This document shows, piece by piece, positions 38,761 to 55,287 of a stretch of DNA of 64,000 nt. Both the position numbers and the translations under genes were made by a program. Numbering within the stretch: position 1 is the first letter of the stretch; every line of letters starts with the position of its first letter. Below the pieces are notes generated by a model. That model was not told the DNA's origin and did no database searches. It worked only from the letters and a program-made list of their open reading frames with translations. Origin of the DNA: a virus; IMG/VR virus record IMGVR_UViG_3300009182_000063, positions 1 through 64,000 of that record, one strand, 5' to 3'.

Positions 38761-40050
38761 ATGGCTTACCTTGGTAATACACCAACTTCGCAAAGTTTTA
38801 CTTCCAATATAGATTACTACAGTGGAACAGGTTCAGCTACAGCGTTTACACTGTCACGTTCAGTGGCCACGATCAATGATATTTTGGTTGTTGTTGATAA
38901 CGTGGTTCAACGACCAACTGATGCTTATACACTGAGCGGAAGTGTTATCACCTTTACTTCTGCTCCACTGAGCGGAACTAACAATATCTATGTTCGTTAT
39001 ATGGCAACAACTACTCAGGTTGTTGCTCCTGCCGCAAACAGCGTTTCCTATTCTTCTTTGACCTCAGATATGCAAAGTAATATCTATGGGTTCAAGAATC
39101 GTATTATGAATGGTGGTATGGGTATTTGGCAAAGAGGTACTAGTTTTACTGTCGCTGGTTCTACTTTTGCATATACTGCAGATCGCTGGGTTGTATATTC
39201 TGCAAATAGTTCAACTACGGTATCAAGAAATTCAAGCATTCCAACTGGTACTGGATTTCCATATAGCGCACAAGTACAGCGCACTGCTTCAAACACAGGA
39301 ACAAGTGCTGTATTTTTCCAACAAATAATTGAATCAAATAATATGCTTGATCTAGCAGGTCAAACAATAACATTAACATTCTGGGCAAAAGCAGGTGCCA
39401 ATTTTTCATCAGGAAGCACTGGTGTATACATTAATACAGGAACTGTTGCTGATCAAGGAACCGCAGCTTCTCTTGGTAGTTGGACTGGATACACTTCTGC
39501 TGCTACATATACTTTTACGCCAACAACAACTTGGACAAAATATACTGTAACTGCTAATTTAAGTTCAATTGCTTTAGAATTATCAACATTATTTTTCTAT
39601 AACCCAACAGGTACTGCTGGAGCAGATGATTCTCTTTATATCACTGGTCTTCAGTTAGAAAAAGGCGCAACAGCAACTAACTTTGATTACAGACCTTATG
39701 GTGCTGAAAAACTTTTGTGTATGAGATATTATGAAAAAACATATCAAGATGATGAAGCACCTAATAGAGTTAATCCAAATACAGCTAATGCATTAACTGG
39801 TGTTGCAACAAGTACTACTAACATTGCTTGTCATTGGAAATTTTCAGTACCTAAGAGAACATCAGCAACAGTACAATATTATTCTTGGAATGGAACTGGT
39901 GCTGGTAAGTGGGCAAATTTAAGTAATACTGATGTTACAGTTTCAACACCGTGGGGTGCTGGTTATACTGGATTTGCTAGACTCGATAGTACGGGTCTTA
40001 CTGCTGGTGCTTTTTATTGGGGCTTTGCGGCTGCAGATGCGGAGTTATAA
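38761..40050 (+). CDS. Adhesin/fibre 1 of the -AEL class
   Basis: A 429-residue fibre with a strong AAGGAG site. The N-terminus (TPTSQSFTSNIDYYSGTGSA, then SRSVATINDILVVVDNVVQR and YTLSGSVITFTSAP) is a phage attachment domain. Next comes the adhesin core FKNRIMNGGMGIWQRGTSFT, common to seven fibres here. A carbohydrate-binding-like beta-sandwich (TITLTFWAKAG, then FLYITGLQLEKGATATNFDY-like) and a variable tip follow. It ends ADAEL, where the GCGGAGTTATAA coding the end also serves as ribosome site for the next small gene. Confidence 0.85.
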   Translation: MAYLGNTPTSQSFTSNIDYYSGTGSATAFTLSRSVATINDILVVVDNVVQRPTDAYTLSGSVITFTSAPLSGTNNIYVRYMATTTQVVAPAANSVSYSSLTSDMQSNIYGFKNRIMNGGMGIWQRGTSFTVAGSTFAYTADRWVVYSANSSTTVSRNSSIPTGTGFPYSAQVQRTASNTGTSAVFFQQIIESNNMLDLAGQTITLTFWAKAGANFSSGSTGVYINTGTVADQGTAASLGSWTGYTSAATYTFTPTTTWTKYTVTANLSSIALELSTLFFYNPTGTAGADDSLYITGLQLEKGATATNFDYRPYGAEKLLCMRYYEKTYQDDEAPNRVNPNTANALTGVATSTTNIACHWKFSVPKRTSATVQYYSWNGTGAGKWANLSNTDVTVSTPWGAGYTGFARLDSTGLTAGAFYWGFAAADAEL

Positions 40051-40052
40051 AA

Positions 40053-40214
40053 ATGTATAAATTATCAACACCTTGGAATGGTAAGTCTCTAGTTATTATT
40101 AGACTTAGTGACAATGCTTGTATTCCTATTGACAATAATAACAGAGATTATAGGGAATACCTTAAATGGCTTGCTGAAGGTAATACACCACTCCCAGCAG
40201 ATACGGAGAAATAA
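40053..40214 (+). CDS. MYKL-type fibre partner ORF 1 (53 aa)
   Basis: MYKLSTPWNGKSLVIIRLSD, then NACIPIDNNNRDYREYLKWL and AEGNTPLPADTEK. It is the first of seven small genes with the core (A/C)xIP.D..N.DY..YL.W...GN.P.PAD, a peptide that follows fibre genes in many phages. It begins three bases after the fibre stop and overlaps the next fibre by one base. It probably helps to fold or assemble its fibre. Confidence 0.82.
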   Translation: MYKLSTPWNGKSLVIIRLSDNACIPIDNNNRDYREYLKWLAEGNTPLPADTEK

Positions 40215-41386
40215 TGGCAGTTACACAACTTGGTTCCAATGGACTTGCCGATAGCGCAATAACAACTACAAAGATTGCGTCAAGTGCAGTGGCAACTGCT
40301 TCACATGCTGATGCCAGTATTACTCCAGCCAAGATGGCAAACTCTGGTAGAGAGTTGGGTATGCGCAATATGTTTATCAATGGCAACTTTGATATTTGGC
40401 AACGTGGAACATCCTACACATATCCAGGTGGTATTTGGCTTTATGGTCATGCTGATCGTTGGGGTGGTCACTTTGATGCTAGCATTGCTGGATCTTGGTC
40501 AAGAAGTACCAATGTGCCGAATAGTAATTCTACATACTCAATGCGTGTTGCTGGACAAACAAGTGGATCTTCTGCGTATCTAGATCAAAGAGTTGAGGCT
40601 GTTAATGGTAGAGCAGCACTTGCCGCTGGTTCCATAACTGTAAGTGGTTGGATTAAACGAACAGGAAATGCTGCTTCTTCAGTTTCTTTAAATTTAATTA
40701 CACCAACTGCTCTTGATAACTACGCATCCTATAATTCGCTCGGTGCTATTTTCACTGCAAATAATACTATCAGTGGTAATGGTACTGCATCTGCCAGCAC
40801 TTTAACACTTACAACAGCAGATACATGGTACTACTTTACTTTGACTGATACCAGCTGGGCATCGAGAACTGGTGTTGCCAATGGTGCTCAGGTTTTCTTT
40901 TCTTTTGGTGGACTATCAACTACTGGCAGCTACTACGAAGTTTCTCAGATGCAACTAGAAGCTGGTCCAACAGCAACTCCTTTTGAGTATCGTTCATATG
41001 GTGCTGAGTTGGTACTATGTCAGAGGTATTATTCAAAATCTTATAACGACAATGTTGTTCCAGGCACAGCAACACAAGTTGGAATGGAAGTTGCTGGATT
41101 TCAAGGTGCTTCTGGACTTGGTGGTGCTTATGGAAATGTTAAATTTCCTGTTAAAATGAGAACAACTCCAGGAACAATTAATATTTGGGATGGCGCAGGA
41201 ACAGCAAATACACATTCATACACATATGGTGGTGCTGGTTCAGCGCAAGGAATTTCTAATGGAGGTAGTTGGTGGGGTTCTGGTACACCATTTAATACAA
41301 GTCATAGTGGTTTTTTTATGCGGCCAACAGGCAGCCAAGCAAGTGCTTGGAATTATGTTCACTATACGGCTGATGCGGAGTTATAA
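40214..41386 (+). CDS. Adhesin/fibre 2 of the -AEL class
   Basis: A 390-residue fibre. Its start (AVTQLGSNGLADSAITTTKI, later ASITPAKMANSGRELGMRNM) is shared with fibre 3 at 41583 (LADGTVGTADIQDTSITPAK). The core is FINGNFDIWQRGTSYTYPGG, followed by a lectin-like sandwich (GRAALAAGSITVSGWIKRTG, SYYEVSQMQLEAGPTATPFE) and a Gly/Ser/Trp-rich tip (GISNGGSWWGSGTPFNTSHS). It ends VHYTADAEL with the SD-bearing GCGGAGTTATAA. Confidence 0.85.
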   Translation: MAVTQLGSNGLADSAITTTKIASSAVATASHADASITPAKMANSGRELGMRNMFINGNFDIWQRGTSYTYPGGIWLYGHADRWGGHFDASIAGSWSRSTNVPNSNSTYSMRVAGQTSGSSAYLDQRVEAVNGRAALAAGSITVSGWIKRTGNAASSVSLNLITPTALDNYASYNSLGAIFTANNTISGNGTASASTLTLTTADTWYYFTLTDTSWASRTGVANGAQVFFSFGGLSTTGSYYEVSQMQLEAGPTATPFEYRSYGAELVLCQRYYSKSYNDNVVPGTATQVGMEVAGFQGASGLGGAYGNVKFPVKMRTTPGTINIWDGAGTANTHSYTYGGAGSAQGISNGGSWWGSGTPFNTSHSGFFMRPTGSQASAWNYVHYTADAEL

Positions 41387-41581
41387 ATGTATAAATTAAT
41401 AGGATATTATGATTACGATAACCACTTAAATAAAGTTGGTGAACTTAAAGTGGAAAAAAATGCTGTTCTCAGATTAAGAGACACCGCATATGTGTACTTC
41501 AATGAAGATAGTAAAGATTATCAAGCATACCTAACATGGGTCGAAGCAGGCAACGATCCTGAACCAGCGGACGAGGAATAA
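41387..41581 (+). CDS. MYKL-type fibre partner ORF 2 (64 aa)
   Basis: MYKLIGYYDYDNHLNKVGEL, then RLRDTAYVYFNEDSKDYQAY and LTWVEAGNDPEPADEE. It belongs to the same family as the 53-residue gene before it but has a longer N-terminal part. It starts immediately after the fibre stop, driven by the GGAG inside the fibre's last codons, and is followed by fibre 3 after one base. Confidence 0.82.
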   Translation: MYKLIGYYDYDNHLNKVGELKVEKNAVLRLRDTAYVYFNEDSKDYQAYLTWVEAGNDPEPADEE

Positions 41582-41582
41582 T

Positions 41583-42608
41583 ATGGCAATCTCAACAATA
41601 GGTACTAATGCTCTTGCCGATGGTACAGTTGGCACTGCTGATATTCAAGACACAAGTATCACTCCAGCAAAGATGGCAAATAGTGGTGCAGAGTTTGGAA
41701 TGCGCAATCGCCTTATCAATGGTGCGATTGGAATTTGGCAGAGAGGCACTTCTTTTACAAGTAGCGGTGTTTCAACATATACAGCCGATAGATTTTATGG
41801 TAATGCATCTTCAGGAACAATAACACGTTCTACTGATGTTCCAGCGGGATTTACATATTCATTTAGCAATGCTGCTTCGTCTACCGCATATCCTGGAATT
41901 ACTCAACGCATTGAGTCTGTCAATATTGCAGACTGCGCTAGTCAGGCAATAACTGTTTCATTTTATGTAAAACAAACTTCTGGTACTTCTAGTGCGCTTA
42001 ATATTAATTTGGCTTATCCAACTGCAGTGGACAATTATACATCTAGCACAACTATTGTTGAAACAAATGTTGTCGCCACCATGCCTGCATCATGGACTCG
42101 TTACACATTTACATACACATTACCTTCTAATGTTACAAATGGAATGTCAATTGTTTTATTCATACCGTCTGCTTCGGTAACAGCAACATTCTTAATTACA
42201 GGAATACAACTAGAAAAAGGCAGTACCGCAACACCCTTTGAGTATCGTCCTTACGGTACTGAGTTGGCTTTGTGTCAGAGGTATTATTGGAAAACAACTG
42301 GTGGTTATGGAATTCCTTCAGTAGGAGCTGGAATGGCATATAATTCTTATACAGCAAGAATTCACATACAAAATCCTGTTCAAATGAGAGCTTCTCCTTC
42401 TTATAGTTTTTCAGGAAATTTATACATATTGCAAAGTAATGCGAACGGAATATTATTGAATGCTTTAGCTACAACTTATGCTGGATTATTATCATCAATG
42501 ATTGATGTTAATGTTAGCGGCACTGGTTATTTTAATGCTGGATATGCAACTCTCCTTTGTGTAGATAATTCAGGTAGTTATTATTTTGCTGGTTCTGCGG
42601 AGTTATAA
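41583..42608 (+). CDS. Adhesin/fibre 3 of the -AEL class
   Basis: A 341-residue fibre with the same attachment module as fibre 2 (ITPAKMANSGAEFGMRNRLI). The core reads NGAIGIWQRGTSFTSSGVST. The beta-sandwich includes SQAITVSFYVKQTSGTSSAL and FLITGIQLEKGSTATPFEYR. The tip is a distinct Tyr/Ser-rich sequence ending YYFAGSAEL. Sharing the base but not the tip with fibre 2 points to modular exchange of receptor-binding ends. Confidence 0.85.
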   Translation: MAISTIGTNALADGTVGTADIQDTSITPAKMANSGAEFGMRNRLINGAIGIWQRGTSFTSSGVSTYTADRFYGNASSGTITRSTDVPAGFTYSFSNAASSTAYPGITQRIESVNIADCASQAITVSFYVKQTSGTSSALNINLAYPTAVDNYTSSTTIVETNVVATMPASWTRYTFTYTLPSNVTNGMSIVLFIPSASVTATFLITGIQLEKGSTATPFEYRPYGTELALCQRYYWKTTGGYGIPSVGAGMAYNSYTARIHIQNPVQMRASPSYSFSGNLYILQSNANGILLNALATTYAGLLSSMIDVNVSGTGYFNAGYATLLCVDNSGSYYFAGSAEL

Positions 42609-42609
42609 A

Positions 42610-42765
42610 ATGACATATAAATTATATAAAGATTTTTTGGGAAATGAATGTTGTGTTGTATTAGATGGAAAAATGTCCATTCCATTTGACCCAGCTAACA
42701 CTGATTACCAAGCATACCTAGCATGGGTTGCAGAAGGTAATGAACCACTTCCTGCCGACGAATAA
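42610..42765 (+). CDS. MYKL-type fibre partner ORF 3 (51 aa)
   Basis: A short gene: MTYKLYKDFLGNECCVVLDG, then KMSIPFDPANTDYQAYLAWV and AEGNEPLPADE. The core IPFDP.N.DY.AYLAW..EGN.PLPAD places it in the same family as the other small partners. Its ATG is seven bases after the GGAG supplied by the end of fibre 3. Confidence 0.82.
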   Translation: MTYKLYKDFLGNECCVVLDGKMSIPFDPANTDYQAYLAWVAEGNEPLPADE

Positions 42766-42768
42766 ATA
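42761..42768 (+). promoter_or_regulatory. Late promoter octamer AATAAATA at partner ORF 3 stop
   Basis: AATAAATA (NATAAATA consensus) overlaps the stop codon of the small gene and lies 25 bases before the ATG of the next fibre, a normal leader length. Confidence 0.5.
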
Positions 42769-42793
42769 CTAAAGAAACCTAAAGAGACTATCA

Positions 42794-44155
42794 ATGGCAT
42801 ATATTGGCTCAAGTCCAACCTCTACAGCATTCGTTACGGATTCCTTTAATGGTAATGCGTCAACCACAGTATTCACAATGTCTGTGGCACCTGCCAATCC
42901 TTCCTCTGCGCTTGTTGCTATCTCAGGTGTTCTTCAGGATCCAACAACCTATGCTGTTAGCGGAACATCACTGACATTCTCTTCAGCACCACCACTTGGT
43001 ACTGGTAATATTTCTGTTCGTTATCTAGGCATACCTGCTTCTGGTATAACAACAACAGCGTACCGAACTCTTACTGAGTTCACTGCCACTGCTGGTCAAA
43101 CAACTTTCTCACCACCATCTTACACTGTTGGATACATTAATGTGTATCGCAATGGGTCACGACTTGGCACTGCTGACTTTACAGCAACCAATGGAACTTC
43201 TGTTGTGCTGAACAACGCAGCAGGTGTCAGCGATTTAGTTGCCATTGAATCTTTCTATATAACTTCAGTTACTAATGCGTTACCACAAACTGGTGGTGTA
43301 ATTAATGCACCTTCAGGTGCTGTTGCGCTACAAGTTCAAAGCAATAGTGCTGTTGGTATATATCAAGACTCAAGTGCCAATGTGGGTATTGGTACTGCTT
43401 CACCTTTACAGAAACTTCATGTTGCAAGTGCTGCAAGTGCAGGTAATGTTTATCAATTAATTGATAGTAGTGCAACCACCAATGGATATAATGCTGCCAC
43501 TCTATATAAGAACTCAGATCGTATGTTTAGGGTCGGTGCTCTTGGTGGTGTTCAAGGATTTACTGGTGGATACTTTGTTATCTATGATGAAACTGCTGGC
43601 GCATGGCGCATGGTTATTGATAACAGTGGTCGAATGCTTGTTGGATTGAATTCAGCAAATGCTAGTGGTTCAAACTTTCAAGTTTCCCAAGGTGTTACAT
43701 TCCCAGCTACTCAATCTGCATCTGCTGATGCGAATACGCTAGATGATTATGAAGAAGGTACATGGACACCATTTTGGAGTCCTGCGACAACTAATTTTGG
43801 TTCTATAACATATGCAGCAGACACTGGTGGAAGATACACAAAAATAGGAAGAATGGTATATGTTCAGTTTTTTATTCAAGTATCTGCTTATTCTGGTGGA
43901 AGCGGGTTTTTAAGACTGCAAGGATTTCCATTCAATACAGATGGTGTGTCAAATCAAAATCAAGGAGTTACTGTTCATTTGGCAGGGTCATGGGGAACTA
44001 ATACAATTAACAGTTTAGACCTTGGTGGTACATCAGCTAATGCTAAATATCGTACTGCTGCAAATGGTACTCTTGATAATGGTAATTTAAATGTAACTGA
44101 TATGGCAACTAATTGTTTCGTGAGAGCATGTTTTTGCTATCAAACATCAACTTAA
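42794..44155 (+). CDS. Fibre with YIGSSPT attachment domain (453 aa)
   Basis: A 453-residue fibre. The N-terminal 190 residues (AYIGSSPTSTAFVTDSFNGN, then SALVAISGVLQDPTTYAVSG, GTGNISVRYLGIPASGITTT and TVGYINVYRNGSRLG) are nearly identical to those of the fibre at 44477. A NVGIGTASPLQKLHVASAAS segment leads to the shaft, and the C-terminal region (LDDYEEGTWTPFWSPATTNF and YTKIGRMVYVQFFIQVSAYS) is a typical phage 'YEEGTWTP' tip domain. It does not end in -AEL and its downstream partner is of a different family. Confidence 0.85.
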   Translation: MAYIGSSPTSTAFVTDSFNGNASTTVFTMSVAPANPSSALVAISGVLQDPTTYAVSGTSLTFSSAPPLGTGNISVRYLGIPASGITTTAYRTLTEFTATAGQTTFSPPSYTVGYINVYRNGSRLGTADFTATNGTSVVLNNAAGVSDLVAIESFYITSVTNALPQTGGVINAPSGAVALQVQSNSAVGIYQDSSANVGIGTASPLQKLHVASAASAGNVYQLIDSSATTNGYNAATLYKNSDRMFRVGALGGVQGFTGGYFVIYDETAGAWRMVIDNSGRMLVGLNSANASGSNFQVSQGVTFPATQSASADANTLDDYEEGTWTPFWSPATTNFGSITYAADTGGRYTKIGRMVYVQFFIQVSAYSGGSGFLRLQGFPFNTDGVSNQNQGVTVHLAGSWGTNTINSLDLGGTSANAKYRTAANGTLDNGNLNVTDMATNCFVRACFCYQTST

Positions 44156-44159
44156 ATTA

Positions 44160-44179
44160 ACTAATCTGGATTGATTAGT
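44160..44179 (+). other. Seven-base inverted repeat between fibre and next gene
   Basis: ACTAATC (44160-44166) and GATTAGT (44173-44179) form a perfect stem around a six-base loop. No T run follows, so it is not a standard terminator. It may slow transcription or occlude or define the start of the next small gene. Confidence 0.4.
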
Positions 44180-44200
44180 CGGACACAAAAGGAAAATGAA

Positions 44201-44452
44201 ATGAGTTTAACAAAAGAACAAGCAATTGATAAAATCGAAATTGTGGAAAATGGTATTCTACAAGTTCGTGAAATAACACGCATCATGGAAGATGGTAAGC
44301 AATTATCTTCTTCCTATCATCGCTGGTCATTCGCTCCAGGTAGCGATGTTTCATCAATGCCAGCAAATGTTCAAGCGATTGCTGCAGCTGCATGGACTAC
44401 AGAAGTCATCGCTGCCTATGAAGCACAGGTTGCTGAACAAGCACCTAAATAA
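44201..44452 (+). CDS. Small fibre partner, distinct family (83 aa)
   Basis: An 83-residue protein: SLTKEQAIDKIEIVENGILQ, then VREITRIMEDGKQLSSSYHR, WSFAPGSDVSSMPANVQAIA and a helical Ala-rich end. The open frame extends upstream to 44171, but ATG 44201 has AAAGGA eight bases before it. The 'VREITRIMEDG' and 'YHRW..PG.D' motifs are common in small proteins after phage fibres; the role is unknown. It lies between two fibres with the same attachment domain. Confidence 0.75.
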   Translation: MSLTKEQAIDKIEIVENGILQVREITRIMEDGKQLSSSYHRWSFAPGSDVSSMPANVQAIAAAAWTTEVIAAYEAQVAEQAPK

Positions 44453-44476
44453 TAGAGAATAATAAAGAGACCATAA

Positions 44477-46165
44477 ATGTCATATATTGGATCAAGTCCG
44501 ACTACCGCTGCATTCGTAACTGATTCTTTCAGCGGAAATGCTTCAACCACAGCATTTACAATGTCGGTTGCTCCAGCAAACACTTCATCGGCACTTGTTG
44601 CTATCTCTGGTGTTCTTCAGGATCCAACAACATACGCAGTTAATGGAACAACACTTACCTTTTCATCGGCACCTCCGCTGGGCACTGGTAATATTTCCAT
44701 TCGTTACCTTGGCATACCTGCTTCTGGTGTAACAACCACTGCTTATCGTACAGTGACTGAGTTCACTGCTACACAAAACCAAACAACTTTCTCAACTCCA
44801 TCCTATACTGTTGGTTACATTAATGTATACCGCAATGGTATTCGTTTGGCCAGCGGAGACTACACAGCATCAAGCGGAACTTCTGTTATACTAAACAACT
44901 CTTGCTCACTAAGCGATCTAGTAACTGTTGAGTCGCTATCAGTTAGTTCTGTGAGCAATGCGATTCCGCAAACTGGTGGTATCATTAACTCGCCATCTGG
45001 TGCGACACCACTACAAGTTCAAAGTAATAATATTCTTGGACTGTATCAAGATGCCAGTGCCAATATTGGTATCGGCACTGCTTCACCATCGTCAAAATTG
45101 CATGTTGCTGGTGGTGCTGGTTCTACTATTAGAAATACAGCATCTTCTGGATCATCGTGGTTTGTTGGTAGTAATGTAGATTCATATATTTTACATAATG
45201 AATCAAATACACCAATGGTACTTACAACTAATGCCACAGAACGTATGCGTATCACTGCTGCTGGTAATGTTGGAATTAATTCCGCTGCACCTGGCAGAAG
45301 ATTTGTAACTAATTCACCTTCTGCAATGAAATTATCCACTGCGCAAGGTGGATTATTTGCTGACGTAGGAAATGATGGTGGTGTATTAATTGGTAGTGAT
45401 TTCGCTGTTGGTAGTATTCAAGGTTGTAACGCAGCAGGAACATCTGCCAAGAATTTAATGCTTCAACCAGAAGGTGGTGGTGTATTAATTGGTACAACTA
45501 CATTATCTGGTAAATTCACTGTGGTTGGTGGTCGTTCATTCTTTGCCGCTTCCAGTGAAGTTTATGCTGTTGGTGCTAGATATTCTGAAAGTGGTGGAAC
45601 AGTATATTTTGGTGCGACAGATGCAACCTCCACACCTGGAGTTCAGATATCTTCTGCTGGCGGTGGTGCTCTTGTATCAATTCTCGCTACTGGTCAAATT
45701 GGCATGGGTGCCGCAAGTCCAGGTACAGGAAACACTCTAAAGGTATTTGGAATCGGTACTGATAATGCAGTTCAGTTTGGAAATGCTTCTTCTGGTGTTT
45801 ACTTACCATATGCATCACCAACATCATGGTCTTCATATTCAGACGCAAGATTAAAAGATATTGTTGGTGATTACGAAAATCCACTGGATCATATTTTACA
45901 ACTTAATCCTGTTAAGTATACTTTTAAATCTGATGAAAATAAAAAAGTTCACATAGGTCTTTTGGCGCAAAATGTTTTAGAAGTTATTCCTGAGATTGTT
46001 GACGAGAATACTTTACCAGATGATAGCGTTGATAAAACTAAGTATCTTGCTTTAAGATACACTGATATTATTCCAGTATTAATTGGCGCAATCAAAGAAC
46101 TCAAAGCAGACCTTGACGCAACCAAAGCAGAATTAGCTGCTCTTAAAACTAAGGTAGGTAACTAA
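44477..46165 (+). CDS. Fibre with YIGSSPT attachment domain and S74 chaperone
   Basis: A 562-residue fibre. Residues 1-190 duplicate the base of the fibre at 42794. The shaft has NIGIGTASPSSKLHVAGGAG, ATERMRITAAGNVGINSAAP and similar collagen-free repeats. The C-terminal S74 intramolecular chaperone shows SYSDARLKDIVGDYENPLDH, ILQLNPVKYTFKSDENKKVH, IGLLAQNVLEVIPEIV and a coiled coil. It has no small partner of its own, consistent with carrying its own chaperone. It overlaps the next fibre by one base (TAATG). Confidence 0.86.
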   Translation: MSYIGSSPTTAAFVTDSFSGNASTTAFTMSVAPANTSSALVAISGVLQDPTTYAVNGTTLTFSSAPPLGTGNISIRYLGIPASGVTTTAYRTVTEFTATQNQTTFSTPSYTVGYINVYRNGIRLASGDYTASSGTSVILNNSCSLSDLVTVESLSVSSVSNAIPQTGGIINSPSGATPLQVQSNNILGLYQDASANIGIGTASPSSKLHVAGGAGSTIRNTASSGSSWFVGSNVDSYILHNESNTPMVLTTNATERMRITAAGNVGINSAAPGRRFVTNSPSAMKLSTAQGGLFADVGNDGGVLIGSDFAVGSIQGCNAAGTSAKNLMLQPEGGGVLIGTTTLSGKFTVVGGRSFFAASSEVYAVGARYSESGGTVYFGATDATSTPGVQISSAGGGALVSILATGQIGMGAASPGTGNTLKVFGIGTDNAVQFGNASSGVYLPYASPTSWSSYSDARLKDIVGDYENPLDHILQLNPVKYTFKSDENKKVHIGLLAQNVLEVIPEIVDENTLPDDSVDKTKYLALRYTDIIPVLIGAIKELKADLDATKAELAALKTKVGN

Positions 46166-47286
46166 TGACACAAGCAGTTGTTACAGCGCAAAATGGTGGA
46201 GCAGATTACTCTGGCACCTTTCGTAACAAAATAATCAATGGTGACATGCGTATTGATCAGCGCAATGCTGGTGCAAGTATTTCAGCTGGTTTAAGCACTT
46301 TCACTGTTGATAGATGGCCAGTGTATGCTTCGGTAGCAAGCAAAGGAACAGCAGGTCAAAACCTCAACGCAGTTACACCACCAACTGGTTTTTCAAATTA
46401 TCTTGGATTTCAAACTGGTGGCAGTGCATATAGTGTAACAAGTAGCGACCTGTTCTTTTTCTATCAAAACATTGAAGGATATAACACTTCTGAATTAAAT
46501 TATGGAACTGCAAATGCTAAAACAGTTACAGTATCCTTTTGGGTAAATAGTTCATTAACTGGAACATTTGGTGCGCTATTAACAAACAGTGCATACAATA
46601 GAGCATATGGATTTACTTATACTATTTCTGCTGCCAATACTTGGACATATATTTCTGTTCCAGTTCCTGGAGATACAAGCGGAACATGGGTCGGTGGTAC
46701 CAATGGTATAGGAATGACATTAAGAATTAATCTTGGTTGTGGTTCTAGTTCTAATGTGACAGCTGGTTCTTGGCAATCTGCTTCTGCTTCTGGTGTAACA
46801 GGAACAGTTAGCGTTTTAGGAACAGCCAATGCTACTTTCTACTTTACTGGTGTTCAGTTAGAAGTCGGAACTCAAGCAACACCCTTTGAGCGTCGTCCTT
46901 ACGGTATGGAGTTGGCACAGTGCCAAAGATATTACTATAGAACACCAGCGCAAGGAGATGGTGCTCAACACTACAACATAATGGGTCGTATAACAGGATT
47001 AAATCAAAGTGTTTTCACTTCAAATTTACCTGTTAGTATGAGGACATATCCTGCAATATCATTAACTCCAGCATATAATACTGGATCGGGGTGGCAAACT
47101 AATTTAGCAGGAGTCTCCAATGCAGCTTGGACAAGTGCTCCTACTCAGTTGTCTCCAGAGTTAAATAAGTTTTGTTTTTATGTTGGTACAGCAACATGGT
47201 CTGGTACATATGTAGGTACATCTGTTCAACCATATACACCTACTGGTGTCGCTGCCAACTACATAGAATTAAATGCGGAGTTATAA
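46165..47286 (+). CDS. Adhesin/fibre 4 of the -AEL class
   Basis: A 373-residue fibre. It begins TQAVVTAQNGGADYSGTFRN and KIINGDMRIDQRNAGASISA, nearly the same as fibre 5 at 47518, also at DNA level. The sandwich part has KTVTVSFWVNSSLTGTFGAL, SAANTWTYISVPVPGDTSGT and FTGVQLEVGTQATPFERRPY. The variable tip ends IELNAEL with GCGGAGTTATAA. It is the first of a tandem pair (fibres 4 and 5) with common bases. Confidence 0.85.
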   Translation: MTQAVVTAQNGGADYSGTFRNKIINGDMRIDQRNAGASISAGLSTFTVDRWPVYASVASKGTAGQNLNAVTPPTGFSNYLGFQTGGSAYSVTSSDLFFFYQNIEGYNTSELNYGTANAKTVTVSFWVNSSLTGTFGALLTNSAYNRAYGFTYTISAANTWTYISVPVPGDTSGTWVGGTNGIGMTLRINLGCGSSSNVTAGSWQSASASGVTGTVSVLGTANATFYFTGVQLEVGTQATPFERRPYGMELAQCQRYYYRTPAQGDGAQHYNIMGRITGLNQSVFTSNLPVSMRTYPAISLTPAYNTGSGWQTNLAGVSNAAWTSAPTQLSPELNKFCFYVGTATWSGTYVGTSVQPYTPTGVAANYIELNAEL

Positions 47287-47287
47287 A

Positions 47288-47521
47288 GTGAATACATATA
47301 AAATTCAATTAGAACCAGATAGAGCTGATGGTGGTGTTAGACAACCATGTGCTGTTTTGCGTTCCGATGGTTGGAGTATTCCACTACATCCAGACAATAC
47401 TGACTTTCAAACTTTTGTAAAAGAATTAACAGTTGACTTTACAATACTTCAGGATGCTGATGGTAAGCAAGCTGATCAAGGAACTATCAAAGCAATATTA
47501 AAGATTAGGAATAATCAATGA
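47288..47521 (+). CDS. MYKL-type fibre partner ORF 4, GTG start (77 aa)
   Basis: A diverged family member: (GTG)NTYKIQLEPDRADGGVRQP, then CAVLRSDGWSIPLHPDNTDF and QTFVKELTVDFTILQDADGK. I choose GTG 47288, because it is the standard seven bases after the fibre-encoded GGAG; the frame upstream belongs to the fibre. The C-terminal half (about 30 residues) is an extension absent from partners 1-3. It overlaps fibre 5 by four bases (ATGA). Confidence 0.78.
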   Translation: MNTYKIQLEPDRADGGVRQPCAVLRSDGWSIPLHPDNTDFQTFVKELTVDFTILQDADGKQADQGTIKAILKIRNNQ

Positions 47522-48636
47522 CACAATCAGCTGTTATAGCCCAGCAAGGTGCATCAGATTACTCTGGCACCTTCAGAAATAAAATAATCAATGGCGATAT
47601 GCGTATCGACCAAAGGAATGCTGGCGCATCTGTAACTAACACAAGTGATGCAATTTACTGTATTGATAGATGGCAGATGTATGGCTATCCTCAAAACACA
47701 AGTGCTATTTCTGCGCAGCAAGTTTCCACCCCAACACTTTCTGGATATACTAATTCGGTAAAAATAACTTCACTTGCTGCAGCAACTGTTGGTTCTTTAT
47801 CGTATACAAGTTTATGTCAACAAATTGAAGGATATAATATTCATGATTTGGCATGGGGAACAGCTTCTGCTAAAACAGTTACACTATCTTTCTGGGTTTA
47901 CTCATCAATAACAGGTGTGTTTGGTGGGTCTTTACAAAATAGTGCAAGAAATCGTTGTTATCCATTCACTTATACTATTTCTTCTGCTAATACTTGGACT
48001 TATATTTCTTTAAGTATTCCTGGTTGTACTGATGGAACATGGTTAGTAAATAATGCAGTTGGTATTCAACTTGCATTTCAACTAGGAATAGGTTCAACAT
48101 ATTCTGGAACTGCTGGTTCTTGGTCTACCAGTAATCTTTGGGGTGCAACTGGCGCAACCAATATTATAACAACCAATGGCGCAACATGGTATGTTACTGG
48201 TGTTCAGTTAGAAACTGGATCATCGGCAACTGCGTTTGAGCGTCGTCCTTTTGGTTTAGAATTATCGCTGTGTCAACGATATTACATAAAATCATATAAC
48301 ATAGAAACTGCTCCAGGAACAAATCAAAGTGGTGCTGGTATAGGTAACACATCATATAGAAACCAAGATTATAGTAGTACTAGATCAACATTTTCTTCTC
48401 CTGTTTATTTTCCAGTACAAATGAGAGCAACGCCCACTGTAACAATATATTCTCTCCCTGGGACTTCTGGAAATTATAGCATTGGATCTCAACCACAATT
48501 GAATGATGGTACTGGTTCTGCTGCAGCAACAACAATTTACTCTACAGGAACAAGAGGGTTTGCTGGAGTTGAAACTGGCGGTATTACTGCTGGGCAATTT
48601 TTTAATTTCCACTATACTGCAGTGTCGGAGTTATAA
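47518..48636 (+). CDS. Adhesin/fibre 5 of the -AEL class
   Basis: A 372-residue paralogue of fibre 4. TQSAVIAQQGASDYSGTFRN and KIINGDMRIDQRNAGASVTN form the shared base; KTVTLSFWVYSSITGVFGGS and YVTGVQLETGSSATAFERRP continue the sandwich. The last 100 residues (receptor-binding tip) differ fully from fibre 4. It ends FHYTAVSEL, a variant of -AEL with TCG in place of GCG, still keeping CGGAGTTATAA. Confidence 0.85.
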   Translation: MTQSAVIAQQGASDYSGTFRNKIINGDMRIDQRNAGASVTNTSDAIYCIDRWQMYGYPQNTSAISAQQVSTPTLSGYTNSVKITSLAAATVGSLSYTSLCQQIEGYNIHDLAWGTASAKTVTLSFWVYSSITGVFGGSLQNSARNRCYPFTYTISSANTWTYISLSIPGCTDGTWLVNNAVGIQLAFQLGIGSTYSGTAGSWSTSNLWGATGATNIITTNGATWYVTGVQLETGSSATAFERRPFGLELSLCQRYYIKSYNIETAPGTNQSGAGIGNTSYRNQDYSSTRSTFSSPVYFPVQMRATPTVTIYSLPGTSGNYSIGSQPQLNDGTGSAAATTIYSTGTRGFAGVETGGITAGQFFNFHYTAVSEL

Positions 48637-48637
48637 C

Positions 48638-48934
48638 ATGTATAAATTAATAGAAATAACAAAAGAAGACGGATCAAAATATAAAGTTACTGATTCTGTT
48701 CAAAGAATATCTGATTTAGCATTTATTCCTTTCGATCCATCTAATAGAGACTTTCAAGAATTCATCAGACTGCTTCATGAGTCAAGAGTAAATAAAGCAA
48801 CTGGTAAAGCAGACAATGGATTTAAACTTTTCAATGCCGATGATGACACAGAAGTTGATATAGATATACTGAAGCAGTTAGAACAAAAATATTTCTTAGG
48901 TCCACGTGAGTGGGTCAATGCTCAACAATTTTAA
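48638..48934 (+). CDS. MYKL-type fibre partner ORF 5 (98 aa)
   Basis: MYKLIEITKEDGSKYKVTDS, then VQRISDLAFIPFDPSNRDFQ, EFIRLLHESRVNKATGKADN and a charged end (PREWVNAQQF). The first 55 residues are the family core; the rest is an extension with an acidic patch (DADDDTEVDID). It starts seven bases after the GGAG in the end of fibre 5. The longer open frame upstream is a shadow of the fibre. Confidence 0.8.
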   Translation: MYKLIEITKEDGSKYKVTDSVQRISDLAFIPFDPSNRDFQEFIRLLHESRVNKATGKADNGFKLFNADDDTEVDIDILKQLEQKYFLGPREWVNAQQF

Positions 48935-49129: not shown

Positions 49130-49152
49130 GAAAAAGATAAGGATAAACTATA

Positions 49153-49683
49153 ATGGCTGTGACTATCAATGCCACCACAACGCAAGGTTTACTGGTAACA
49201 CCAGATAACAGTGGACTACTTCAATTTCAATTGAATGGTGTTAATCTACCACAACCAACTGTTATGCCATGTTTCAGTGTTACTAGATCCGCTGATCAAA
49301 GTGTTACTCAAAATGCATACACAAGAATAAACTGGGATGTAAAAAACTTTGACACAAATAATAATTTTGATGCATCTACAAATTATAGATATACTCCAAC
49401 TGTAGCTGGATATTATATATTTCACTGTGGGTTTTTCAATAATCCAGGTGGAGCGGGACAGTTTGTTACAGCAGTTAGAAAGAATGGTGGCAATCAATCC
49501 CCAGTTGGAAATTTGGTGATTGGTGGTACAGCAGTCGGTGGCGGTACAATGGTATCAACGACTGTTTTACTATTTGCAAATGGAAGTACTGATTATTTTG
49601 ATACTGCAATTTATGCATCAACTGCATCGCCAACTATCCAAGCATCTTCTACATTCTATGGTTATTTTGTGAGAGGTGTATAA
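49153..49683 (+). CDS. C1q-like adhesin 1
   Basis: A 176-residue protein that looks like a C1q/TNF-type jelly roll. Support: PCFSVTRSADQSVTQNAYTR, INWDVKNFDTNNNFDASTNY, RYTPTVAGYYIFHCGF, AVRKNGGNQ and VLLFANGSTDYFDTAIYAST, matching the C1q pattern FS..., FD....F.....F.P..aG.Y, kNG, LN.GD. The N-terminus (AVTINATTTQGLLVTPDNSG) is a short attachment segment shared with the gene at 49862. C1q-like domains trimerise and bind surface ligands. Confidence 0.75.
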   Translation: MAVTINATTTQGLLVTPDNSGLLQFQLNGVNLPQPTVMPCFSVTRSADQSVTQNAYTRINWDVKNFDTNNNFDASTNYRYTPTVAGYYIFHCGFFNNPGGAGQFVTAVRKNGGNQSPVGNLVIGGTAVGGGTMVSTTVLLFANGSTDYFDTAIYASTASPTIQASSTFYGYFVRGV

Positions 49684-49862
49684 TGACATTATACCAAAAA
49701 ATTATTAGACTATACCCAGAACTTGAGACATATGATTTTGCTTTTGGTGCTATTCGTTTAGAAAACAACTCTGATGGTGATGGTGAGTTCATTGCCAAGT
49801 GGGAACACCCAACTTTAAAACAACCAACTCGTGCGCAATTAAATGCGGTTAAGGATAAGTAA
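49683..49862 (+). CDS. Small partner of C1q-like adhesin 1 (59 aa)
   Basis: MTLYQKIIRLYPELETYDFA, then FGAIRLENNSDGDGEFIAKW and EHPTLKQPTRAQLNAVKDK. It is a clear paralogue of the gene at 50415 (same NDSDG.G...I..W.HPTL..PT..QL.AVK pattern) and belongs to the widespread phage family of small fibre-associated proteins with that motif. One-base overlaps join it to the adhesins on both sides. Confidence 0.8.
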   Translation: MTLYQKIIRLYPELETYDFAFGAIRLENNSDGDGEFIAKWEHPTLKQPTRAQLNAVKDK

Positions 49863-50413
49863 TGGCTGTAACTTTTAATGCTACAACAACTCAGGGAATG
49901 ATTGTTACTCCAGATAACAGCGGAACATTTCAGTTTCAGTCTAATGGCGCAAACATCGCAACACTCACTGCTGCTCCTGCGTTTAGTGCTTATTCATCAT
50001 CGACTCAAATTGTTTCTTCTGGGGTAACCACAAAAGTAATTTTTGGTACAGAGTCATATGACACCAACTCTAATTACGACACCACATTATCTAGATTTAC
50101 ACCAACTGTAGCGGGTTATTACCAAATGAATGTTTCAATTGCAACGGCTGCAGATACTAGTATTTCCAGTTCTAGATTTTATATAGCAAAGAACGGCTCT
50201 GGTCAATATGTCCCCTCAATTGAAAATACAGGATTGACTGGTACTGGATATTACACACCAGCATTTGCTGCTCTAGTTTATGCAAATGGAACAACTGATT
50301 ATTTTGAAGTTTATGGTTTTGTTGAAGGTACTGGGACAAACAGATACTTTTTTTCTTCTAGTACTGGAATACACGCAACAGTATTTCAAGGTATATTGGT
50401 AAGGAGCGCATAA
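49862..50413 (+). CDS. C1q-like adhesin 2
   Basis: A 183-residue paralogue of the adhesin at 49153. AVTFNATTTQGMIVTPDNSG is the shared base. The jelly roll reads APAFSAYSSSTQIVSSGVTT, KVIFGTESYDTNSNYDTTLS, RFTPTVAGYYQMNVSI, IAKNGSGQ and LVYANGTTDYFEVYGFVEGT. The ligand-binding surface differs from adhesin 1, while the scaffold is kept, as expected for duplicated receptor-binding proteins. Confidence 0.77.
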   Translation: MAVTFNATTTQGMIVTPDNSGTFQFQSNGANIATLTAAPAFSAYSSSTQIVSSGVTTKVIFGTESYDTNSNYDTTLSRFTPTVAGYYQMNVSIATAADTSISSSRFYIAKNGSGQYVPSIENTGLTGTGYYTPAFAALVYANGTTDYFEVYGFVEGTGTNRYFFSSSTGIHATVFQGILVRSA

Positions 50414-50414
50414 C

Positions 50415-50597
50415 ATGACATTGCCAGAAAAAATTAAAGCACTTTATCCAGAATTAGTAGATGCTGATTTTATGGGACGAAACGCAACCATACATCTTCA
50501 AAACGATTCAGACGGAAAAGGCGACTACATCGCTGAGTGGAAACACCCTACCTTGGCCAAGCCAACACAAGAACAATTAGATGCAGTTAAGGAATAA
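50415..50597 (+). CDS. Small partner of C1q-like adhesin 2 (60 aa)
   Basis: MTLPEKIKALYPELVDADFM, then GRNATIHLQNDSDGKGDYIA and EWKHPTLAKPTQEQLDAVKE. It is the paralogue of the gene at 49683. The order adhesin-partner-adhesin-partner shows the pair was duplicated as one unit. It begins two bases after the adhesin stop, with AAGGAG inside the adhesin's last codons. Confidence 0.82.
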   Translation: MTLPEKIKALYPELVDADFMGRNATIHLQNDSDGKGDYIAEWKHPTLAKPTQEQLDAVKE

Positions 50598-50600
50598 TAA

Positions 50601-51731: not shown

Positions 51732-51738
51732 GGAAATT

Positions 51739-51948: not shown

Positions 51949-51967
51949 TATAAAGTAGAGAAAATAA

Positions 51968-52582
51968 ATGGCAATCATACTAGACGGATCACTGGGAGAA
52001 TCCAATGCTTCTTGGACAACTTCAGGTCGCCCATCAAGTCCATCAGCTGGGCAGATGGGTTTCAATACGACACTGGGTGCCATTGAAACATATAATGGCA
52101 GTGCTTGGTATCAGGCAGGTAGAGCAGGGAATGTAATACAGGTAGTTCAATATTCTACTGGTTCAAGTTATTCAGTCACCTCTACAACTTTTACAGCTAC
52201 TGGATGGACGGGATCAATTACTCCACAGTTTTCAACTAGTAAAATTCTAGTTAGTATTAGTGCTGGTCAATGGAGAATTACTACAAATGCCCTTCAAGAA
52301 GGATGGGCTCAATTGTGGAGAAGTATTGGTGGTGGGGCATATTCAGCACTAGGTCAAACTGGTGGAGCTGCTGGTGGTAGTGGTGATATCCACGAGATTC
52401 TAATACCGCCTGCTAATAATCCATTTGCAGTTTCTCATAGTGTTTTGTATTTAGATAGTCCAAATACAACTTCTCAAGTAACTTACCAACCATATGCTAA
52501 AACTAATAGTAGTGGTACGACAATTTATTATAACATGTCCAGCCCTGTTATGCTTATGACTTTAATGGAGATTGCAGCATGA
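51968..52582 (+). CDS. Small adhesin with GFNT tip domain (204 aa)
   Basis: A 204-residue protein. The N-terminus (ILDGSLGESNASWTTSGRPS, then SPSAGQMGFNTTLGAIETYN, GSAW) carries the RP..G.(M)GFNT..(A/L).E.YNGSAW motif seen also at 38215 and in the fibre at 55970. The rest is a beta-sandwich (SVTSTTFTATGWTGSITPQF, WAQLWRSIGGGAYSALGQTG) typical of small phage adhesins. It overlaps its partner gene by four bases. Confidence 0.78.
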   Translation: MAIILDGSLGESNASWTTSGRPSSPSAGQMGFNTTLGAIETYNGSAWYQAGRAGNVIQVVQYSTGSSYSVTSTTFTATGWTGSITPQFSTSKILVSISAGQWRITTNALQEGWAQLWRSIGGGAYSALGQTGGAAGGSGDIHEILIPPANNPFAVSHSVLYLDSPNTTSQVTYQPYAKTNSSGTTIYYNMSSPVMLMTLMEIAA

Positions 52583-52842
52583 TTCTTAAACATGAAGCGA
52601 TTTATGCAACACATCCTAATGTGGTTAATATCCGTGGCGATGTTGCGTATGACCAAAACGAAAATATCGTTGAATATGATGAGGCAGTTGTTCAAGCACA
52701 TATCGACGCAAATGAATATAAAGAACTTCGCCGAGCAGAATATCCATCCTACGCAGATCAATTTGATACAATTTTCCATGACGGAATTGATGCGTGGAAA
52801 GCAAAGATTCAAGCAGTGAAAACTAAATATCCAAAAGGATAA
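52579..52842 (+). CDS. Small fibre partner, cyanophage type (87 aa)
   Basis: MILKHEAIYATHPNVVNIRG, then DVAYDQNENIVEYDEAVVQA, HIDANEYKELRRAEYPSYAD and QFDTIFHDGIDAWKAKIQAV ending KTKYPKG. The R..EYPSYADQ.D.I.H.G.D.W...I..VK.KYP pattern is a well-known small protein after cyanophage-type fibres. It starts at an ATGA overlap with the adhesin. Confidence 0.85.
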   Translation: MILKHEAIYATHPNVVNIRGDVAYDQNENIVEYDEAVVQAHIDANEYKELRRAEYPSYADQFDTIFHDGIDAWKAKIQAVKTKYPKG

Positions 52843-52845
52843 TAA

Positions 52846-53913
52846 ATGGCATACGGTAATCTAGCAGTTGACACAATAACAACAAGTACGGGACAAATCA
52901 TTGGTGCTTCTTCATCAGCCACGATGAAGAATCGTATCATCAATGGTGATATGCGTATTGATCAAAGATATGCTGGCTCTGCAACTGCCAACAGTATTAA
53001 TTCATATACTGTTGATAGATGGGAAGTGTGGCAAACTACAACTGGAAAACTTGTGGCACAACAAGTTACTGATGCGCCAACTGGTTTTATAAATTCGTTG
53101 AAAGTCACATCACAATCAGCATATTCAATGTCTACTGGTGAATTGTTTAGAATATTACAATTTATTGAGGGTTATAATGTCGCCGATTTCGCCTATGGAA
53201 CTGCCTCTGCTGTAACAGTTACATTATCATTTTGGGCTAAATCGTCTTTAACTGGAACATTCGGTGGCGCATATGGTAGAAATGATGGTCTAAGAACTTA
53301 CCCATTCGTTTATACAATAAATCAAGCAAATACTTGGGAATATAAAACTATTGTAATTCCTGGCGATACATCAGGAACATACGCTAAAGATAATACTGCA
53401 GCAATTGCTTTACAATTTTGTTTAGGTATTGGTACTGCTGCTATTGGCGGAACTGCATTTACATGGGGTACTTCAGCAGTTGGTGCTTCTGTGGTAGGAA
53501 CATCAGTTGTCGGTACATCTGGTGCTACATATCAAATAACTGGTGTTCAGTTAGAAGTTGGTTCAACTGCAACTACTTTTGACTATCGTCACTATGGTCA
53601 AGAGTTACAGTTGTGTCAACGCTACTATCAGTCTCTAGGAAATGTTGGTCTATCATCTTATAATGCTTCAGGAGTAATTGGGTTTGTTTTTCCAACTGCA
53701 ATGAGAGCAACACCAACAATTACATGGAGTTATAACGGCACAAGTAATGCAATTTATAGATTTGCCGATGCTGTAGTATCAACACTATCATCGCCTACTG
53801 TAATTGCTACTAATACTGGAATGCAAACTATGTACGCTTTTAGTCCAGCAAGTTGGGCAGGGGCATCTGGATATGGATATCAAGCAGCATTTGTTCTTAA
53901 TGCGGAGTTATAA
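52846..53913 (+). CDS. Adhesin/fibre 6 of the -AEL class
   Basis: A 355-residue fibre whose base AYGNLAVDTITTSTGQIIGA is shared with fibre 7 at 54122. The core is MKNRIINGDMRIDQRYAGSA; the sandwich has VTVTLSFWAKSSLTGTFGGA, NQANTWEYKTIVIPGDTSGT and YQITGVQLEVGSTATTFDYR. Parts of the sandwich match fibres 4 and 5 more than fibre 7, showing mosaic origin. It ends FVLNAEL with GCGGAGTTATAA. Confidence 0.85.
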   Translation: MAYGNLAVDTITTSTGQIIGASSSATMKNRIINGDMRIDQRYAGSATANSINSYTVDRWEVWQTTTGKLVAQQVTDAPTGFINSLKVTSQSAYSMSTGELFRILQFIEGYNVADFAYGTASAVTVTLSFWAKSSLTGTFGGAYGRNDGLRTYPFVYTINQANTWEYKTIVIPGDTSGTYAKDNTAAIALQFCLGIGTAAIGGTAFTWGTSAVGASVVGTSVVGTSGATYQITGVQLEVGSTATTFDYRHYGQELQLCQRYYQSLGNVGLSSYNASGVIGFVFPTAMRATPTITWSYNGTSNAIYRFADAVVSTLSSPTVIATNTGMQTMYAFSPASWAGASGYGYQAAFVLNAEL

Positions 53914-53914
53914 A

Positions 53915-54112
53915 ATGACAAATTATGTTTCAGGTCCAATGTATAAAATAGTTTTAGGTAGAATTGAAAAAAATATCTGTGGTATTATTAGATTAACAGA
54001 TGATGCGTTTATTCCAATGGATCCAGCAAACAGAGATTATGCAGAGTATTTAAAGTGGATCGACGCAGGAAATGTGCCACAGTTACCTGACCTTCCTCAA
54101 GAAAACACATAG
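53915..54112 (+). CDS. MYKL-type fibre partner ORF 6 (65 aa)
   Basis: MTNYVSGPMYKIVLGRIEKN, then ICGIIRLTDDAFIPMDPANR and DYAEYLKWIDAGNVPQLPDL. The core AFIPMDPANRDY.EYLKW..AGN is that of the family. It begins seven bases after the GGAG at the end of fibre 6; an internal ATG (MYKIV, 53939) is an alternative start. Confidence 0.82.
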   Translation: MTNYVSGPMYKIVLGRIEKNICGIIRLTDDAFIPMDPANRDYAEYLKWIDAGNVPQLPDLPQENT

Positions 54113-54121
54113 GAATAATAA

Positions 54122-55102
54122 ATGGCATACGGTAATTTAGCAGTTGATACGATAACAACCAGCACTGGTCAAGTGGTCGGTGCATCTTCTGCTTCTAGCA
54201 TGAAGAATCGTCTTATCAATGGCGCCATGACATTTTGGCAGCGTGGTACAAGTTCATCTTCGACAGGTTATCTTGCTGATCGTTGGAATTTCTATGCTGA
54301 CTCATCAAGAACTTTTGCTCGTTCAACTGATGTACCATCTGGATTTCAATATTCTTCTTCCTTGACTGGAACAGGTAGCACTGGACTTACACAATACATT
54401 GAGTCTGTTAACTGTGCCGATCTTGGTGCGCAAACAATCACTGTTTCTTTTTGGTTGAAACAAACTTCAGGCGCAGGTACTAACGCAATCGCACTAAACC
54501 TTTACTACGCAAGCACTACAGATGCTACCTATTCAACTAGAATCGGCACTCAGCAACAATTCAATACAACTTCTTCATGGCAACAATATAGTGCTACTTT
54601 CACAGCACTTCCATCTTCTGTTGCCAATGGTATTCAGGTAACAATAGTAACAACAAGTGGATCGGCAGTGACTTTCCTTGTTACTGGTGTTCAGGTAGAA
54701 CTCGGTGCTTCGCCAACTTCCTATGAGTACAGACACTATGGACAAGAGTTGAGATTATGTCTAAGATACTATGAGATTATGAATGATCAATATTATCCAC
54801 TACATATTCCTTATGGATATTCACTATATGCTGCTGGATATTGGAGATTTTTAGAACCAAAAAGAGCAACACCAACAGTATCAGATGCAAGAAGTGTAAC
54901 TGGTACAACATTTGCTAGTGCTGTTGATCAATTTGGTCAAGGATCTTTTACACCGACCAGCATGCAAATTGATAGTCCTACACAATATGGTTGTCGCATT
55001 GCTTTAATTTTTACTGGTTCTCTTGGAACAGCAGGAACTACCCATGGTGATATGATTAATATACAAAAATCTGGTTTCTTCCAAGCAAGTGCGGAGTTAT
55101 AA
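54122..55102 (+). CDS. Adhesin/fibre 7 of the -AEL class
   Basis: A 326-residue fibre with the base AYGNLAVDTITTSTGQVVGA and the core MKNRLINGAMTFWQRGTSSS. Its sandwich (AQTITVSFWLKQTSGAGTNA, FLVTGVQVELGASPTSYEYR) is closer to fibre 3 than to fibre 6, although the base is that of fibre 6, again a mosaic. The tip ends FFQASAEL with GCGGAGTTATAA, and the next ATG overlaps the stop by one base. Confidence 0.85.
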   Translation: MAYGNLAVDTITTSTGQVVGASSASSMKNRLINGAMTFWQRGTSSSSTGYLADRWNFYADSSRTFARSTDVPSGFQYSSSLTGTGSTGLTQYIESVNCADLGAQTITVSFWLKQTSGAGTNAIALNLYYASTTDATYSTRIGTQQQFNTTSSWQQYSATFTALPSSVANGIQVTIVTTSGSAVTFLVTGVQVELGASPTSYEYRHYGQELRLCLRYYEIMNDQYYPLHIPYGYSLYAAGYWRFLEPKRATPTVSDARSVTGTTFASAVDQFGQGSFTPTSMQIDSPTQYGCRIALIFTGSLGTAGTTHGDMINIQKSGFFQASAEL

Positions 55103-55287
55103 TGTACAAATTTTACAAAAAGATGGATAGTACAATTGATGATACTGGTATCATTCGTATGTTCAATTCGTGGAATGAACCAACACCGAACCCTGCTTAT
55201 GTTCCCTTTGATCCAAAGAACAGAGACTATCAAGAGTATCTTAAGTGGCTTGCCATTGGAAATACACCACTTCCTGCTGATGATTAA
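55102..55287 (+). CDS. MYKL-type fibre partner ORF 7 (61 aa)
   Basis: MYKFYKKMDSTIDDTGIIRM, then FNSWNEPTPNPAYVPFDPKN and RDYQEYLKWLAIGNTPLPAD. It is the last member of the array, with the canonical YVPFDPKNRDYQEYLKWLA.GNTPLPAD core. It is followed by a strong terminator, so this gene closes the transcription unit of the fibre array. Confidence 0.84.
   Translation: MYKFYKKMDSTIDDTGIIRMFNSWNEPTPNPAYVPFDPKNRDYQEYLKWLAIGNTPLPADD

Follow-up and report, generated by a model that had tools for sequence, protein, structure and literature searches.

Fibre and partner gene cassettes of a phage gene run: a ribosome site in the last fibre codons, and apparent exchange of fibre tips with part of the partner gene

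Why should fibre genes whose tips align poorly with one another all close with the same few codons? The question is raised by a run of host-recognition fibre genes in a water-borne phage, at 38-55 kb of the virus record IMGVR_UViG_3300009182_000063 (IMG/VR; 64,570 bases), whose positions 1 to 64,000 were analysed and are called the window below. Seven fibres ending in -(A/S)EL are there followed directly by a small partner gene, and the Shine-Dalgarno (SD) site of each partner lies in the last codons of the fibre. The original prediction saw in this stretch the ribosome site of the next gene, at least part of the reason why the peptide AEL is conserved, and a constant patch at which fibre tips can recombine. 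Our analysis separates these three constraints on the same 12 bases: the ribosome site accounts for the choice of codons only and not for the peptide, and two measurable joints, at the end of the fibre core and in the middle of the partner gene, replace the proposed recombination patch. The reading as a whole, namely SD-tuned two-gene cassettes that trade the tip together with a hairpin of a Tfa-like partner, is in our judgement probable. The features in question are listed below, with lengths in amino acids (aa), distances in nucleotides (nt) and expect values as E.

38761..40050, + strand: fibre 1, ends ADAEL, CGGAGTTATAA; phrog_4492, E 1.4e-50
40040..40050, + strand: CGGAGTTATAA, last codons of fibre 1 and SD site of partner 1
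40053..40214, + strand: partner 1, 53 aa, GGAG 8 nt upstream; phrog_20370, E 3.4e-14
40214..41386, + strand: fibre 2, ends ADAEL
41387..41581, + strand: partner 2, 64 aa, GGAG 6 nt upstream
41583..42608, + strand: fibre 3, ends GSAEL
42610..42765, + strand: partner 3, 51 aa, GGAG 7 nt upstream
46165..47286, + strand: fibre 4, ends LNAEL; core of the predicted model resembles a carbohydrate-binding module
47288..47521, + strand: partner 4, 77 aa, GTG start, divergent, GGAG 7 nt upstream; no PHROG match
47518..48636, + strand: fibre 5, ends AVSEL, with TCG GAG
48638..48934, + strand: partner 5, 98 aa, GGAG 7 nt upstream
52846..53913, + strand: fibre 6, ends LNAEL
53915..54112, + strand: partner 6, 65 aa, GGAG 7 nt upstream
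54122..55102, + strand: fibre 7, ends ASAEL; phrog_4492, E 6.6e-44
55102..55287, + strand: partner 7, 61 aa, GGAG 5 nt upstream; modelled as beta-hairpin, strand and helix

The fibres end at all seven predicted coordinates and each closes with CGGAGTTATAA, the element ending also at 41386, 42608, 47286, 48636, 53913 and 55102, and the predicted distance of 5-8 nt from GGAG to the partner start is found throughout (8, 6, 7, 7, 7, 7 and 5). The codon before GAG is GCG in six of the seven fibres and TCG in the one ending at 48636, and the ATG of partner 7 is made of the last A of the fibre stop plus TG. With at most one mismatch, the 11-mer CGGAGTTATAA occurs 8 times in the window, as compared with a mean of 0.71 in shuffled sequence, and none of 100 shuffles reached 8. 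All seven fibres have E and L as their final two residues, although the tip region before them aligns poorly. The scan covered three of the seven fibres, each of which matches phrog_4492 (tail fiber protein) with E from 6.6e-44 to 1.4e-50, a profile match of the fibre C-terminal region; six of the seven partners match phrog_20370 (unknown function), the exception being the partner at 47288, for which no PHROG match was obtained. The start described as MYKL-type holds in general, but this same partner begins VNTYKI on GTG, and two others begin MTYKL and MTNYVSGPMYKI.

Relatives were collected by two profile scans of viral contigs in which the fibre ends were left unused, with 80 loci from each among the best matches listed. 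A fibre-core profile with the C-terminal region cut away then gave 160 distinct closed fibres, 101 and 59 in the two samples; the rows removed were 13 of the 428 profile matches, as open-ended fibres, and 99 duplicates. Loci selected by a search pattern were excluded from the counts of codons and endings and included in the pair analyses, and a further partner-selected set came from a search with one partner-like peptide. Two loci, L156 and L277, lie on contig IMGVR_UViG_3300009151_000120, which is 99.9% identical to positions 28761-47287 of the window, and they are not independent of the window because they represent the same phage in another sample.

Of the 160 fibres, 117 have the next gene starting at -1 to +4 relative to the fibre stop (tight junctions), 27 have it at -4 and 13 at +8 or beyond (distant junctions), while the remaining three rows have another start or none that is readable; L054, starting at -11, stands outside the tight and distant counts, and no start could be read for L277 and one L290 row. 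GGAG, formed by the pair of codons that precede the last Leu, occurs at 104 of the 117 tight and at none of the 13 distant junctions (Fisher 4e-11), and the contrast is the same for the rows with a partner only (97/107 versus 0/10) and in the partner-selected set (44/50 versus 0/3). GGA is kept in 113 of the 117 tight junctions. At the distant starts an SD-consensus run of 3-7 bases lies in the spacer, within 16 nt upstream, in all 13 cases. In the -4 overlap class, each of the 13 rows with GGAG has a second in-frame ATG at -1 or +2, at a usable distance from GGAG, and a second ATG within five codons occurs in 6 of the 14 rows without it. In the interior of these fibre genes GGAG encodes only 5 of 90 (A/S)E dipeptides, and GAG makes up 0.345 of the Glu codons. 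In the comparison of synonymous codons that had been proposed as a check, the Ala of AEL ends is GCG in 74 of 85 cases in the first sample as against 0.11 of the interior Ala codons. Because GGAG tracks the tight starts, is rare at interior (A/S)E and repeats in the partner-selected set, these observations support a tuning of the last fibre codons as an SD site: the genes nearly touch, so that the SD site of the partner sits in the last codons of the fibre, and the choice of G-GAG is thereby fixed.

An SD site inside the upstream gene is in itself ordinary phage packing. Many tight junctions in the window, whatever their kind, have it, as after VRSA at 50413, EIAA at 52582 and ADTEK at 40214, and all seven window pairs combine an SD site with a start only a few nt from the end of the fibre gene. 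Close gene spacing with an SD site is known as translational coupling in PMC12548453, which shares with our cassettes a start a few nt from the stop; the arrangement is thus ordinary, while the codon pair here recurs across a family whose tips are unrelated. The tight spacing may likewise couple the translation of fibre and partner.

The pairing of fibre and partner, originally described as a strict one-to-one match, proved strong among the relatives but not strict. A partner recognised by profile lies at most 450 nt downstream in 143 of the 160 fibres (97/101 and 46/59). Contig ends account for some of the fibres without one, and at L020 a partner-like gene is seen by eye that the profile missed. 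At L074, one of L278, L288, L303, L325 and L339 the next gene is another fibre-like gene, and at L028 a holin-like gene replaces the partner. We further observed an HNH-like gene in the place of the partner at L041, starting 1 nt past the stop of an AEL-ended fibre, and a second small partner family (IDRGNGEFTSM type) in the partner slot after EL-ended fibres at L286, L345 and L347. Outside the contigs, 12 records of named phages were fetched and 13 junctions read in them, in nine of which GGAG is present and the next gene begins 0-4 nt past the stop (P-TIM68, MW202481, MW202796, S-B28, MEP401, Venkman, S-B05, Melnitz and Luutsna-1), with Kyanoviridae, Autographiviridae and Zobellviridae among these records. 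As for the others, RB11-B has one junction ending DADY and one ending DAEL whose distant start is preceded by AAGGAG, the junction of ACP17 ends ARLQ and falls outside the GGAG pattern, and in S-H34 the fibre ends DAEL and the next gene is distant and of another kind.

As far as we looked, fibres of other types have other partners, as had been predicted: the VRSA-ended fibre at 49862-50413 is followed by MTLPEKIKALYPEL, and the fibre at 51968-52582, ending EIAA, by MILKHEAIYATHP. It was also seen that C1q-like fibres at 49153-50597 of the window are followed by genes of the MTLYQK/MTLPEKIKALYPEL kind, and that at L356, in MW202796, such a pair is annotated as c1q head and xkdw protein.

The second part of the answer concerns what moves between phages. 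Cores at least 84% identical were found in 67 cassette pairs, and in 64 of these the tips are at random identity at the DNA level, with the partner above the random 95th percentile in 16 of the 64. The strongest case is L008/L035, where the cores agree at 99.3% over 293 nt and the tips are unrelated. Such near-identical cores with random tips are not expected from mutation alone; the tips are clearly exchanged. From the opposite side, among pairs with tip DNA in common 48 have a partner in both members, and here the shared DNA reaches +50 or beyond, into the partner, in 25, stops at the junction in 7 and ends inside the tip in 16. L021 and L295 even have the tip and the partner hairpin in common and partner C-terminal halves of two different kinds. 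The alignments demonstrate what appears to be an exchange of tips and partner hairpins between phages, often as one block. In these counts of core-similar and shared-tip pairs, and in the joint counts and the Leu codon test that follow, the window's own cassettes were left out, and they were included in the similarity correlations, in the comparison of conservation and in the comparison that yielded L008/L035.

The edges of the block can be placed on both sides. In 156 of 183 pairs the left joint lies at most 30 nt from the end of the C-x-RYY codons; restricted to loci that owe nothing to the RYY search pattern, the count is 54 of 62. For the right joint we took pairs whose downstream DNA is at least 84% identical over at least 150 nt, which gave 54 pairs made up of 67 cassettes in 25 clusters. 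Of these, 44 become similar in the second half of the partner (+50 or more), 5 between -7 and +49 and 3 at the AEL patch, and in the other 2 the similarity is continuous. The commonest right joint lies 23 nt before the D of DY..Y, that is at the start of IPFDPAN. Among loci chosen by neither partner nor pattern, 8 of 10 have the right joint in the second half of the partner and 2 have it at the AEL patch. The last Leu codon and the stop gave no signal of inheritance with either partner or core. With the joints at C-x-RYY and IPFDPAN, the exchanged unit consists of the tip, the AEL/SD junction and the partner hairpin; the block often runs from the C-x-RYY codons that end the fibre core to IPFDPANTDYQ in mid-partner, and the AEL/SD junction normally lies inside it. 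In the model of partner 7 (predicted local distance difference test, pLDDT, 89) a hairpin at residues 2-6/12-19 is followed by a strand at 32-35 and a helix at 41-51, and since the IPFDPAN joint falls between hairpin and helix, an exchange would swap the former and keep the latter.

Fibre genes with constant and variable segments are long familiar from the invertible systems of Mu S-U and P1, and tip mosaics from gp37/gp38 of T4-like phages. Our cassettes are like them in having a constant stem and an exchangeable tip that travels with a downstream helper gene, and unlike them in that a single gene run holds several cassettes and one of the joints cuts through the helper gene. We picture the cassette as a two-gene receptor-binding unit, in which the fibre would bring a conserved core resembling a sugar-binding module, followed by a C-terminal tip that is hypervariable and closes with a nearly invariant -(A/S/I)EL, and the partner of 50-100 aa a variable beta-hairpin half and a conserved strand-helix half.

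Several results weigh against this reading. Over 298 cassettes the protein similarity of tip and partner correlates with r=0.04 (core and tip 0.04, core and partner 0.16), and such a near-zero correlation over all pairs means that a strict match of tip and partner is no general rule. The breakpoints are ends of BLAST alignments, with no recombination model behind them, and the pairs share members. When the cut is loosened to at least 80% identity the right joint of 91 pairs falls in the second half of the partner in 53, between -7 and +49 in 7, at the AEL patch in 28 and through in 3; joints at the patch thus do exist but are older or rarer. As for the partner family, none of 85 members matches Pfam (E 0.01) or NCBIfam, and the PDB offers no convincing fold, the best Foldseek hit having E 4.6. 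A sequence search of the PDB gave at best E 0.036, for a short chance-like stretch of an autophagy protein, a VIA comparison limited to Foldseek's own list gave at best Z 3.0, for chemokines, and BFVD gave uncharacterised phage proteins, all above E 0.001. In view of the missing Pfam, NCBIfam and PDB matches, the partner is here called Tfa-like in its mode and not a Tfa member.

The fibre itself gives a first hint of function, as its modelled core (pLDDT 83) finds CBM4-2 (1k42; E 8.1e-5, probability 1.00, template modelling (TM) score 0.61 by target) and CBM11 (6r3m; E 1.1e-5, TM 0.51) in Foldseek and thereby resembles a jelly-roll of the carbohydrate-binding-module kind, with a putative role in sugar binding. 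The partner most likely works like a fibre chaperone of the Tfa type. In PMC9608196, Mu Tfa and gp25 of phage Pam3 have a variable N-terminal beta part and a conserved C-terminal helical part, and our partners are like them in being small genes directly after a fibre and in this layout of the two parts; gp25 has 162 aa there, while the window partners have 51-98 aa and a single predicted helix. PMC10579305 describes for the Alteromonas phages A5/V22 a fibre with a cognate chaperone common to distant phage families, and this chaperone, like the partner, has a helical body and a beta-hairpin; whole modules are in common there, while in our cassettes each of the two genes contains a joint, at C-x-RYY in the fibre and at IPFDPANTDYQ in the partner. 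Acting as a Tfa-like chaperone or cap, the partner would handle its own fibre tip with the hairpin half, and the conserved half may serve a common job such as oligomerisation. That it is instead an adhesin or a structural protein of the tip, comparable to gp38 of phage S16, is possible though rather unlikely: a small and variable protein encoded directly after the fibre and often exchanged with the tip would suit that role, and S16-type gp38 tips are well known and also mentioned in PMC9608196, but the variable hairpin on a conserved strand-helix body resembles the variable-N/conserved-C build of Pam3 gp25 and Mu Tfa described there, and the seven window partners show no glycine-rich region. 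In passing, the partners of L182 and L323 were seen to have a common insertion, GYEAQFNSQTHQIDWVKTS, after the conserved helix.

The proposal that tips recombine at the AEL/SD patch, with the patch itself as the usual right-hand joint, finds little support and appears distinctly unlikely. Such cases do occur, for L029/L346 and L002/L084 have downstream DNA 85% identical from -13 and -16 with unrelated tips, and the 28 of 91 pairs at the looser cut begin there; however at 84% identity or more the 44 pairs starting in the second half of the partner stand against 3 at the patch, and the patch differs in some recent swaps, as in L182/L323, where it reads GCGGAGTTATAA and GCTGAACTTTAA with cores 94% identical.

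The joint within the partner, for its part, shows a peculiarity of the DNA. Across 185 partner genes the IPFDPANTDYQ codons have a third-position GC content (GC3) of 0.51, versus 0.27 before and 0.41 after them, and the patch exceeds the first half of the partner in 169 of the 185 (p 4e-29). C-ending codons are strongly preferred there as compared with other parts of these genes, and the shift is seen for each amino acid taken singly: GAC 0.81 versus 0.44, AAC 0.81 versus 0.42, TAC 0.75 versus 0.30, GCC 0.55 versus 0.15 and ATC 0.58 versus 0.16. The signal is weaker in the seven window partners. A homogenisation of the patch by recombination fits these values, and another constraint at the level of DNA or RNA may also produce them.

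It had been argued that the service of its DNA as the SD site of the partner is at least one reason why AEL is conserved, a view which we now find improbable, a shade more so than the patch as joint. What speaks for it is the codon usage, that is GGAG in 104 of 117 tight versus 0 of 13 distant junctions and GCG in 74 of 85 AEL ends versus 0.11 inside, and this part of the claim, AEL as an SD element, stands for the codons; an SD site may moreover favour A or S at the third-last residue only, where Ile is excluded by GGAG because a GGAG tail needs an NNG codon there. For the peptide it fails. Fibres end in EL in 157 of 160 cases (100/101 and 57/59), in 118 of 119 with GGAG but also in 39 of 41 without it and in 12 of 13 with a distant next start, and for 12 EL-ended fibres the profile finds no partner although 450 nt or more of downstream sequence are available, among them L020 with its partner-like gene seen by eye and three with another small gene type. 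Since EL stays where GGAG or the partner is absent, the SD site does not explain it, and for E-L that reading is largely refuted. In the AlphaFold model of the fibre at 46165-47286 (pLDDT 83) the last strand spans residues 366-370 and A-E-L forms a three-residue tail after it, and the constant -EL tail may be kept because the closure of the tip or the docking of the partner needs it.

Divergence of the tips by fast mutation, with no exchange and with edges that only mark a change of constraint, is very improbable, for although in the whole sample the core and the second half of the partner are conserved and the tips are not, identity drops abruptly at the joints in close relatives, the 99.3% identical cores of L008/L035 have tips at random identity, L002/L266 are 98.8% identical downstream from +80 with unrelated tips, and L103/L239 and L021/L295 have tips in common and lose similarity on both flanks.

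A wider proposal we put forward tentatively, giving it somewhat less than an even chance: aquatic phages of several families may use one plug-in tip format, bounded by C-x-RYY and ATCCCATTTGACCCAGCCAACACAGACTACCAA-like codons that are kept at the DNA level, in which the tip, -EL, the overlapping ribosome site and the partner hairpin would move together by recombination at these bounds, and the stems and the C-terminal half of the partner would stay with the recipient. If the joints hold, each fibre tip of an uncultured phage could be read from metagenomes as a discrete unit along with its helper hairpin, and a test of what limits fibre-tip exchange, an old question, would come within reach; moreover the partner family phrog_20370 gains a probable role. 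Neither the partner family nor the joints are named in the literature that was searched, which is no proof of their being unpublished.

A megablast of the window region against phages gave no match, and neither did a phage lysozyme probe of the window's own record. Inside the tail gene run just before the fibres, at 29144-37557, genes with a CxxxCxxC motif like that of radical SAM enzymes were noticed by eye (29144, 33283 and 34286), together with two proteins of HxH type (36153 and 36859).

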